64,000 nucleotides of DNA. Source: Tunturiibacter gelidiferens (lineage in GTDB: Bacteria > Acidobacteriota > Terriglobia > Terriglobales > Acidobacteriaceae). The DNA is taken from positions 1,984,001 through 2,048,000 of the forward strand of contig NZ_JACCCV010000001.1 in the NCBI RefSeq assembly GCF_013410115.1. Reading direction: 5' to 3'. The notes beneath the pieces were generated by a model, which did no database searches, had not been told where the DNA came from, and saw only the letters and a program-made list of their open reading frames with translations. This document shows, piece after piece, positions 11,864-17,062 of this stretch (position 1 is the stretch's first letter; each line of letters starts with the position of its first letter). Position numbers and translations under genes: made by a program.

Positions 11864-12412
11864 TCAAGTGAGTTTTAGCGTAAGGTGTGCGGGCTGGTGT
11901 TTGTTTTCATGCTCCAGGAGCCAGCGTTTGCGCTCGATGCCTCCACCGTAGCCTGTGAGGGAGCCGTTGGATCCGATGACGCGGTGACAGGGGACGACCA
12001 CTCCGATGGGGTTGGAGCCGTTGGCGAGCCCGACTGCTCTGACGGCTTTGGGCCTGCCGATCTGCGCGGCCAGCTTTCCATAGGAGAGGTTTGTGCCGTG
12101 TGGAATCTGTCGCAGTGCGCGCCAGACCTCGCGTTGAAATGGCGTGCCAGCTGTGCGTACCGGGAGCTCGTTTATCGCGGCAAGCTCTCCTGCGAAGTAA
12201 CGCTTCATCACATTGGATAAGCCAGACGGATTATTGGCTGGCTCAAGCTTGAACCCGTTGCGACCATAGTGAAGCCGCAAGGACTTTTGCAGGCGCTCTT
12301 CATGATCTGTCCATTCAATGGCGCGTAGGTTTCCGTCATGATCGGCCACGATGATCATCTCGCCGATTGGTGTGTCGAATCGATCTGTTAGCAGACTCAA
12401 AGGTTCAGGCAT
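11864..12412 (-). CDS. ogt: Methylated-DNA-protein-cysteine methyltransferase (Ogt)
   Basis: Repairs O6-alkylguanine by transferring the alkyl group to its own cysteine. The active-site motif PCHRV is present with the family surroundings (SYGKLAAQIGRPKAVRAVG before it and SNGSLTGYGGG after). The protein is 182 residues from the ATG at 12412; longer readings run into the upstream gene. The start overlaps the end of the Ada-AlkA gene by eight bases and follows GGGAG, indicating coupled translation. The pair forms an alkylation-repair operon, the same gene combination as in mycobacteria. Confidence 0.93.
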   Translation of the reverse strand: MPEPLSLLTDRFDTPIGEMIIVADHDGNLRAIEWTDHEERLQKSLRLHYGRNGFKLEPANNPSGLSNVMKRYFAGELAAINELPVRTAGTPFQREVWRALRQIPHGTNLSYGKLAAQIGRPKAVRAVGLANGSNPIGVVVPCHRVIGSNGSLTGYGGGIERKRWLLEHENKHQPAHLTLKLT

Positions 12413-13907
12413 GTGCTCCCTCGGTGTGCAGGATTTCGTTTGCGTTTGCGGCCCACAGGTGCTGAGCCGCATAGGCGCGCCACGGTCTCCAGGAATCGGC
12501 GCGATGAAGAAGACTCTTTGGAGTTGCTGGTGCTCCATCGACCTTTGCAACGCCGCGAAGTAAGCCGATGTCCGAGGCGGGGAAGGCGTCCATCTCGCGG
12601 ATTGCTCGGAGGGCGATGTATTGGGCCGTCCACTCGCCGATGCCGGGAATGGTGCGCAGACGTGCGATGGCTTCTTCGATTGTCCCAAAGGGACGGAACA
12701 GGTTGGGGTCATCGGTGGCAGCCTGCGCCAGCGCCTTCAACGATGCTAAGCGTGCAGCCGGCATGCCCAGTCCTAGTGACTTTGCGGTGGCGAGACGCTT
12801 CGCGGTGGGGAAGGTATGCGTCAGACCTGGAGAGGCGCTGGGGTTTTTCGGTAGCGGCTTGCCGTGAAGCGCGACGAGTTGTCCTGCTAGCTTGCGTGCC
12901 GAAGCGACGGTGATTTGCTGGCCGAGGATTGCGCGCACAGCCAGTTCGAAGCCATCCCAGCCTCCCGGCGCTCGCAGGCCTGGATGAAGCGCCACCCACG
13001 GTGCGAGCTGCGGATCGTGCGAGAGGTGTGCGTCGATCGTCTCGATGTCCGCGCCGAGGTCGAAGAGGCGACGCACCCGAGCTACGATTGCAGGCAGTGA
13101 CTGCACGGACGTGAAGTGGATGGTTACGCTGAGGCTCTGTTGGTGCGGGAGGTGAGTCACGGCGATACTCCCAACTGATCCGTCAATCTCAACGGTGCGC
13201 CGGTAGCATCCCTTCTCTACAACTTCGACACCGGGAATGGCACGCGCCTGTAGAAAGGTGAGCATGGACTCCCAGTCGTAGGGCGGGCGATAGCGGAGGC
13301 GGAGAGTGATACCTGCCGAGGCGTTTGGGCGGCTCACGGACGATTTTCGCCGGAGTGCGCTGGGAGGGCGATGGAAGAGCTGTTGAAACAGTTCGTTGAA
13401 CCGGCGCAGGCTGTTGAAGCCCGCGGCGAGTGCAACTTCGGTCATGGGCATTCGGGTTTCATGGACGAGATGCTTGGCGAAGAGCACGCGCCGGGTCTGT
13501 GCTACGGCGATTGGAGAGGCTCCGAGGTGCTGAAGGAAGAGTCTGCGTAAGTGACGCTCGCCGACGCCCAGACGTTCGGCGAGCGCGTCTACGGTCTTGC
13601 CTTCGCTGTCGAGGGCACCGTCGGCTATAAGCGCAAGCGCGCGTGAGACGGTGTTCGAGGTTCCGCGCCACGAAGCCAGTTCGGGTGCGGTCTCCGGACG
13701 ACAACGCAGGCAGGGGCGGTAGCCGGCTTCATGTGCTGCTGCTGCGGAGGGATAGAAGGTGCAGTTTTCGTACTTCGCGGTGCGGGCCGGACAGACGGGG
13801 CGGCAGTAGATTCCGGTGGATTTCACGCCGACGTACATGAGTCCGTCGAAGCGCGGATCACGGCTCTGTAGAGCCCGGTAGCACGCCTCTTTGTCGGGCA
13901 GTTCCAT
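12405..13907 (-). CDS. alkA: Ada metal-binding/AraC/AlkA fusion: 3-methyladenine DNA glycosylase
   Basis: A 500-residue fusion. Residues about 1-80 form an Ada-type zinc domain (VGVKSTGIYCRPVCPARTA and AGYRPCLRCRPE) with its Cys4 set, which can accept methyl groups from phosphotriesters. About 85-190 is an AraC helix-turn-helix region (LGVGERHLRRLFLQHLGASP, AGFNSLRRFNELFQ). The remainder is an AlkA N-domain and an HhH-GPD glycosylase (LGQQITVASARKLAG, LRTIPGIGEWTAQYIALRAI, followed by the catalytic Asp region DAFPASDIGL). It probably both removes alkylated bases and regulates its own operon. I chose the ATG at 13907; a TTG at 13937 is possible. Confidence 0.9.
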   Translation of the reverse strand: MELPDKEACYRALQSRDPRFDGLMYVGVKSTGIYCRPVCPARTAKYENCTFYPSAAAAHEAGYRPCLRCRPETAPELASWRGTSNTVSRALALIADGALDSEGKTVDALAERLGVGERHLRRLFLQHLGASPIAVAQTRRVLFAKHLVHETRMPMTEVALAAGFNSLRRFNELFQQLFHRPPSALRRKSSVSRPNASAGITLRLRYRPPYDWESMLTFLQARAIPGVEVVEKGCYRRTVEIDGSVGSIAVTHLPHQQSLSVTIHFTSVQSLPAIVARVRRLFDLGADIETIDAHLSHDPQLAPWVALHPGLRAPGGWDGFELAVRAILGQQITVASARKLAGQLVALHGKPLPKNPSASPGLTHTFPTAKRLATAKSLGLGMPAARLASLKALAQAATDDPNLFRPFGTIEEAIARLRTIPGIGEWTAQYIALRAIREMDAFPASDIGLLRGVAKVDGAPATPKSLLHRADSWRPWRAYAAQHLWAANANEILHTEGAHA

Positions 13908-14048
13908 GTACGAAGTTTCGCATGTTGAGAGTCTCAAACTAGCGGTTTTCGGACATGGTCATTTATTGGTTTGTGACTTGAAGCTGAGCGGTCGGAGGGA
14001 TCTTCTGGTCGAGTCGAAGCGTCGCGAGGAAGAGATCTCAAAAACTTG

Positions 14049-15616: not shown

Positions 15617-15895
15617 TTATTCGTGCGAGGCCTTGTGCTGTTGTTCGCGCACAATCTGTTCGGCATCGTGGGCGGATCGTGCGATGACCGAGGGGGCAGC
15701 CTCGGGCCATGCCGTGCGCAGAACGGCGGCACGGAACTCGAGAGTGAGTTGCGAGACCTCGCTGCAGGGTTCTAGGACGACGAGCTTTTCGCCGGTGACT
15801 AAGGTGAGGACGGTGTCGGGTGCGGCTTCGGCGTATTTGATGAGGTCACAGTTTACGGCGAGAGGACTACCGTTGAGGCGTGTCAGTTCGATCAT
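15617..15895 (-). CDS. flbD: Flagellar protein FlbD
   Basis: A 92-residue FlbD-family protein, recognisable from its first half: MIELTRLNGSPLAVNCDLIKYAEAAPDTVLTLVTG (written here as continuous family text at residues 1-35; key elements are the N-terminal IELTRLNG, the central NCDLI and the LVTGEK turn). The function is poorly defined in this short type, which differs from the Caulobacter regulator of the same name. I chose the ATG at 15895; the longer reading from 16132 crosses the flagellin leader. It is first in the flbD-motA-motB operon, with a weak sigma28-like site at 15922-15948. Confidence 0.85.
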   Translation of the reverse strand: MIELTRLNGSPLAVNCDLIKYAEAAPDTVLTLVTGEKLVVLEPCSEVSQLTLEFRAAVLRTAWPEAAPSVIARSAHDAEQIVREQQHKASHE

Positions 15896-15921: not shown

Positions 15922-15948
15922 TCATCGGCAGAGAAGTGACGGTCAATA
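15922..15948 (-). promoter_or_regulatory. Weak sigma28-like promoter for flbD-motAB
   Basis: On the minus strand: TATT, 15 bases, GCCGATGA. The -10 element equals that of the flagellin promoter, but only two of four -35 bases match TAAA. It lies 27 bases before flbD. Confidence 0.4.
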
Positions 15949-15995: not shown

Positions 15996-16022
15996 TAAAG
16001 TCGGCGCGGGGGACGCCGATGA
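15996..16022 (+). promoter_or_regulatory. Sigma28 (FliA) promoter of flagellin
   Basis: TAAA (15996-15999), exactly 15 bases, GCCGATGA (16015-16022). This matches the FliA consensus TAAA-N15-GCCGATAA at all but one position. Transcription would start near 16029, giving a leader of about 130 bases before fliC at 16159. Confidence 0.8.
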
Positions 16023-16024
16023 GG

Positions 16025-16135
16025 GGTTTGAACGCGGAGCCTACCGCTTGGTGAACCGGATCTCACAGACTGCTTCGGCAGGGAGGTGAGTTCGCCGGTC
16101 GGGCACCAGGGACTGGCGTCGCGGTAACTCAAACC
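16025..16135 (+). ncRNA. Structured 5' leader RNA of flagellin (candidate cis-regulatory element)
   Basis: Six stems nest in one another: GGTTTGA/TCAAACC (16025-16031 with 16129-16135), TACCGC/GCGGTA (16042-16047 with 16121-16126), TGGTG/CACCA (16049-16053 with 16104-16108), ACCGG/CCGGT (16055-16059 with 16095-16099), CTCAC/GTGAG (16062-16066 with 16086-16090) and CTGC/GCAG closed by a TTCG tetraloop (16070-16081). A seventh small hairpin, GAC-TGGC-GTC, lies at 16111-16120. The flagellin ribosome site follows at 16145-16149. I recognise no known riboswitch. With the predicted transcript start near 16029, the outermost stem may be only partly transcribed. Confidence 0.6.
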
Positions 16136-16158
16136 GAGCAGTACAGGAGCGTTTCCAC

Positions 16159-17004: not shown

Positions 17005-17017
17005 GCGGATGAAAGCG

Positions 17018-17062
17018 ACGGTGGCCACGCGAAGAGGCGTGGCCGCCGTTCTTTCGTTTTTG
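17018..17062 (+). terminator. Rho-independent terminator after flagellin
   Basis: A 13-base stem, ACGGTGGCCACGC pairing with GCGTGGCCGCCGT (one G-T wobble), with a six-base loop, followed by TCTTTCGTTTTTG. It starts 14 bases after the fliC stop. Confidence 0.92.

Follow-up and report, generated by a model that had tools for sequence, protein, structure and literature searches.

The fliC locus and its promoter

The window, a stretch of 64,000 nucleotides from Tunturiibacter gelidiferens, carries the flagellin gene fliC on its plus strand. Between a sigma-28-type promoter and the coding sequence lies a leader whose parts are listed in Table 1, with the Shine–Dalgarno sequence about ten bases past the last stem, just where the original prediction had placed the ribosome site. 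Both promoter boxes are highly conserved among 71 orthologous leaders: the −10 box reads exactly GCCGATGA in 63 of them, and in 65 it is preceded by a −35 element of the TAAA/TCAA/TAAT type at a spacing of exactly 15 nt. Judging from sigma-28 promoters in general, transcription of fliC should begin near position 16028. Because it is the −10 box that puts the start there, the first bases of the outermost predicted stem are probably untranscribed, and the element itself would lie inside the fliC transcript. The original prediction had hinged on a start that does not leave most of the stems outside the RNA; the start predicted here keeps the four helices P1 to P4 inside.

Table 1. Features of the fliC promoter, leader and gene (positions in the window)
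Feature	Position	Strand	Sequence, partner or basis
Sigma-28-type promoter	15996–16022	+	TAAA (15996–15999), 15-nt spacer, GCCGATGA (16015–16022); read from sequence
P1, 5′ strand	16033–16036	+	CGCG; pairs with 16120–16123
P2, 5′ strand	16039–16041	+	GCC; pairs with 16115–16117
Conserved internal loop, 5′ side	16042–16049	+	UACCGCUU in the window, consensus UUCCGCAA
P3, 5′ strand	16050–16053	+	GGUG; pairs with 16104–16107
P4, 5′ strand	16056–16059	+	CCGG; pairs with 16095–16098
Apical hairpin	16060–16094	+	Variable sequence; here CUCAC/GUGAG and CUGC-UUCG-GCAG
P4, 3′ strand	16095–16098	+	CCGG; same basis as P4, 5′ strand
P3, 3′ strand	16104–16107	+	CACC; same basis as P3, 5′ strand
Conserved internal loop, 3′ side	16108–16114	+	AGGGACU in the window, consensus CGGGACA; position conservation
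P2, 3′ strand	16115–16117	+	GGC; same basis as P2, 5′ strand
P1, 3′ strand	16120–16123	+	CGCG; same basis as P1, 5′ strand
Conserved linker, probably single-stranded	16124–16138	+	GUAACUCAAACCGAG; conserved in clade 1
Shine–Dalgarno sequence	16145–16149	+	AGGAG; sequence, with a GGAG-type site 7–11 nt from the ATG in 71 leaders
fliC, flagellin, 281 aa	16159–17004	+	Pfam Flagellin_N (E = 9.6e-32) and Flagellin_C (E = 3e-13)

A second, sigma-28-like −10 box, again GCCGATGA, is oriented divergently on the minus strand (15922–15948), with a weak −35 element, TATT, at 15-nt spacing. This putative promoter precedes flbD (15617–15895), followed by motA and motB; the flbD leader is short and contains no comparable element. 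On the other side, a strong intrinsic terminator with a 14-pair stem and a T-rich tail (17017–17050, plus strand) directly follows fliC, which is therefore probably transcribed on its own, apart from fliD and fliS. Elsewhere in the window, the translations of the minus-strand region 11864–13937 suggest an Ada-AlkA-type DNA repair protein beside an Ogt-type methyltransferase.

Structure and conservation of the fliC leader

In the window, the leader (16025–16135, plus strand) folds into an elongated rod: its stems are nested, a UUCG tetraloop forms the cap, and the minimum free energy is −51 kcal/mol with a z-score of −3.28; 1 of 200 dinucleotide shuffles was equally stable. The predicted stems are GGUUUGA/UCAAACC, CGCGG/UCGCG, GCC/GGC, CUUGGUG/CACCAGG, ACCGG/CCGGU, CUCAC/GUGAG and CUGC-UUCG-GCAG. 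The helices were tested on an alignment of 70 sequences against a null model that lets columns evolve along the sequence tree independently of one another (400 simulations, setting a floor of p = 0.0025). Since this alignment had been fitted to the structure, the tests were rerun on a MAFFT alignment built without it.

Each of the four helices P1 to P4 withstands the tree null on the structure-fitted alignment, P1 by compensatory change, P2 and P3 by pairing and P4 by both. The fourth pair of P1 underwent a compensatory G-C to A-U exchange in 11 sequences, and change on both sides of this helix yielded p = 0.0175 with the structure-fitted and p = 0.005 with the structure-free alignment. P2, whose counterpart in distant genera is GGUUCC/GGGAACC, was paired in 88.5% compared with 74.6% under the null (p = 0.0025) over all 70 leaders; in clade 1 alone the difference was not significant. 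For P3 the values were 87% and 69% (p = 0.0025; structure-free alignment, p = 0.03). Compensatory changes were seen at all four pairs of P4, for which both pairing and compensatory change reached p = 0.0025 (p = 0.0025 and 0.0075 on the structure-free alignment) and native arms outperformed swapped arms (p < 1/2000). Taken jointly on the structure-free alignment, P1 to P4 reached 82% pairing where the null gave 71% (p = 0.0025), with p = 0.015 for compensatory change; slid-register controls remained at the null level, and the distant clade alone gave p = 0.005 and 0.015. Compensatory change occurred at 9 of 16 pairs, amounting to 36 such cells versus 8.6 in shuffles. The excess of G-U cells (54) over A-C cells (28) fits an RNA of the plus strand. 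Stability across relatives was modest (mean z-score −1.4 in clade 1 and −0.3 in clade 2).

A pair-by-pair, APC-corrected scan with the tree null detected no pair at E < 0.05, the best value being 1.1. Covariation in orthologous leaders, on which the six-stem model depended, is thus present as compensatory change at the level of the helix with no single pair significant, and support for the predicted structure holds per helix only. The elongated structure and the middle stems of that model stand, the latter by compensatory changes in the 70 leaders, and its outermost stem does not: the pairing of GGUUUGA/UCAAACC (16025–16031/16129–16135) was no better than the tree-simulated null (p = 0.17–0.33), and native 5′/3′ pairs did not outperform swapped ones (p = 0.49). 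The side hairpin at 16111–16120 (GAC-UGGC-GUC) is in competition with the conserved stem GCC/GGC, and relatives differ in its 3′ arm. Overall, the comparisons among leaders indicate that the core of the fold is real and under selection.

Between P2 and P3, an internal loop (UUCCGCAA opposite CGGGACA) is strongly conserved in the genus. Its CGC core (16045–16047) exceeds 90% conservation in clade 1, and its 3′ side reads CGAAGCA in distant genera. Because the loop is conserved inside a rod whose pairs are otherwise replaceable, its nucleotides suggest a recognition site. The linker after P1 (consensus GUAACUCAAAYCGAG) is also strongly conserved in the genus; helix tests on the 70 leaders supported neither a hairpin nor outer-stem pairing for 16124–16138, and a 3′ hairpin ahead of the Shine–Dalgarno sequence (CUC/GAG plus GUA/UAC) was unsupported in the tested registers. 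The apical hairpin varies in length from 6 to 57 nt among relatives and beats its own shuffles in 89% of the clade-1 leaders tested (Wilcoxon p = 7e-9).

In one subclade, G16037–C16044 is exchanged for A-U together with the change of the P1 pair G16036–C16120 to A-U. This coupled change may reflect an alternative 5′ hairpin, a tertiary contact or one shared event. As a conserved part of the element, the alternative 5′ hairpin CGCGGA-GCCU-UCCGC was rejected: its weak signal comes mostly from one subclade, and a neighbouring pair is A-C mismatched in 13 sequences. We also looked for the means by which refolding, which had been proposed as a control of translation, could mask the ribosome site. 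Sequestration of the Shine–Dalgarno sequence was inconsistent across relatives, the site being about half unpaired on average (mean unpaired probability 0.45 in the predicted folds), and no terminator-like site was found in the fliC leader. Control by such refolding is therefore not supported by the comparison of leaders.

Distribution of the element

Orthologous leaders were gathered via the flagellin protein and with three covariance models, built from Edaphobacter-type leaders (R1), from 48 sequences (R2) and from distant genera only (R3). Among 398 sampled genomes of the family, R1 matched 42 of the 50 genomes of the genus, nearly always with one copy per genome, and all strong matches were located directly upstream of flagellin. 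The eight genus genomes that R1 does not match either have no detectable flagellin (five) or encode a divergent one (three). Weak R1 matches that have no flagellin alongside (L092–L095) are likely due to chance. One genus genome (G354) has two full-length flagellin genes, with 68% and 55% identity to that of the window, and gave a match to the element only at the first.

With R2, weaker matches were added in further genera, again at flagellin; beyond its own genus, the element extends to about ten genera of the family. The model built from distant genera recovered the window copy at the right position (26.9 bits, E = 4e-5), an independent sign of homology. Every family-wide R3 match above 31 bits precedes flagellin; weaker matches (L162, L164, L166–L168) have no flagellin nearby and are apparently due to chance, L162 lying within a reading frame. 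Across the phylum, where 297 genomes were sampled, the sole match outside the family scored 24 bits. Within these samples, the element appears restricted to the flagellin genes of one acidobacterial family, the Acidobacteriaceae, with no convincing match elsewhere. Compensatory helices and a fixed place between promoter and flagellin gene are the two marks of a conserved cis-acting mRNA leader, and the element has both. On sequence evidence we regard the existence of the element as shown, together with the structure of its core, the promoter before it and the fact that it is linked to flagellin exclusively.

Comparison with known leaders and possible function

Searches of Rfam 15 with the whole window at gathering thresholds yielded no matching family. 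With the leader alone at E ≤ 10, two snoRNA-type chance matches outside the element were the only ones, and nothing relevant was obtained for ten related loci. These covariance-model searches confirm that there is no match to c-di-GMP riboswitches, as had been noted at the outset. The c-di-GMP-I and -II riboswitches can act from a leader on motility genes, as the element may, and differ from it in anatomy and in its narrow distribution. Termite-flg (RF01729) and flg-Rhizobiales (RF01736) are likewise lineage-restricted candidate cis-regulatory RNAs with flagellar names (PMC2864571), but they belong to other lineages, and neither the leader nor its relatives matched them at permissive E-values. 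Acido-1 (RF01686) and Acido-Lenti-1 (RF01687) are structured acidobacterial RNAs, classed as not cis-regulatory (PMC2864571); the fliC leader matches neither. Literature searches retrieved no report of this fliC leader element. By these comparisons, the element represents a new RNA family, whereas its kind, the cis-acting flagellin leader, is a known one.

Flagellin is among the costliest proteins of motile cells and is under post-transcriptional control in many bacteria. In Caulobacter, FlbT controls flagellin mRNA, and FljA of Salmonella acts on the fliC leader, both being cases of protein control at the 5′ leader of flagellin, as may apply here. Unlike in Caulobacter, FlbT (PF07378) is absent from the T. 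gelidiferens genome, so that a leader controlled by FlbT was rejected. In Bacillus, CsrA controls flagellin translation at the leader and is opposed by FliW (PMC7652899). The hag leader of Bacillus is a flagellin mRNA leader that serves as a control point beside the ribosome site (PMC7652899), as the present one may, and a role in homeostasis as in Bacillus would suit the exclusive flagellin link of the acidobacterial element. On the other hand, the acidobacterial structure is larger and distinct. Neither CsrA nor FliW was detected in the T. gelidiferens genome; CsrA was found in 2 and FliW in none of 200 family genomes, 104 of which encode a flagellin-like protein despite the near-absence of CsrA and the absence of FliW. 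Because of this distribution, flagellin control of the Bacillus type is missing in the family. Control of the leader by CsrA and FliW, which takes both proteins, was discarded, and so was a CsrA site at the CsrA-site-like ACAGGAGCG.

Since CsrA, FliW and FlbT are all absent from the genome, a different, putative protein most likely reads the leader. In the mechanism that we propose, the sigma-28 promoter would give rise to a fliC mRNA whose first ~105 bases form the conserved element, a rod of four short helices with a variable apical hairpin as its cap and the conserved loop between P2 and P3. A trans-acting factor specific to the flagellum, probably a protein, would bind this loop and set the translation efficiency or the lifetime of the mRNA. 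In bacteria devoid of the usual CsrA–FliW control, flagellin output would thereby be matched to filament assembly. That a factor is bound, in which direction it controls fliC and at what level it acts are what we infer here, and we give this reading, that a putative flagellum-specific factor binds the leader and tunes fliC translation or stability, about an even chance of being correct.

The presence of conserved loop nucleotides within a helical rod would also be expected of a riboswitch that switches translation of fliC when a small molecule, such as a cyclic dinucleotide, occupies its internal loop. Riboswitches before motility genes are generally known, and the alternative hairpin, in the form CGCGGA-GCCU-UCCGCR, could form in many leaders (weak signal, p = 0.03–0.08). 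We nevertheless consider a riboswitch unlikely: no Rfam riboswitch matched even at permissive E-values, occurrence at one gene of one family and once per genome is atypical for aptamers, and a conserved expression platform was not recognised in a leader that has no terminator and masks its Shine–Dalgarno sequence inconsistently. Sensing of cyclic dinucleotides by the fliC leader is not supported, as positive evidence for it was not obtained. A flagellum-specific factor fits better than a general ligand or a c-di-GMP sensor because the element occurs once per genome, at a single gene and in a single family. To a similarly small degree we would credit a passive role, in which the rod, without any regulator, shields a very abundant mRNA against degradation or holds the ribosome site open. 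The rod starts only a few bases after the predicted 5′ end of the transcript and precedes a gene for which high expression is expected, and its stem lengths and apical loop vary freely; mere stabilisation, however, could do without conserved sequences in the internal loop and the linker, and the helices of distant genera are no more stable than shuffles, which is unexpected for a stabiliser.

Two further explanations seem very improbable to us. The divergent promoter region is common to fliC and flbD, and its sigma-28 boxes are very conserved, as they would be if conservation stemmed from a promoter or operator acting on double-stranded DNA rather than from RNA. Such a signal would account poorly for the compensatory changes, which fall in nested helices whose loops are asymmetric, for the prevalence of G-U over A-C exceptions on the plus strand and for conservation that reaches 120 bases downstream of the promoter. 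Equally remote is the idea that a base-pairing small RNA docks on the leader, or that the leader is itself released as one. The conserved single-stranded linker (16124–16138) that adjoins the ribosome site speaks for this; against it, the structured loop is a centre of conservation too, and no terminator follows the element.

Returning to a leader bound by a flagellum-specific factor, one may tentatively go further and suppose that the Acidobacteriaceae have swapped CsrA–FliW-based flagellin homeostasis for an RNA checkpoint, with the leader read by a putative flagellum-linked RNA-binding protein; on the sequence comparisons made here, we regard this as possible but doubtful. A family of abundant soil bacteria is nearly devoid of the known flagellin controllers, yet has an RNA element of its own at the same point. 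With covariance models available, helices predicted and a candidate loop for recognition at hand, the RNA is now defined, and the search for its partner and its mechanism has become directly testable.
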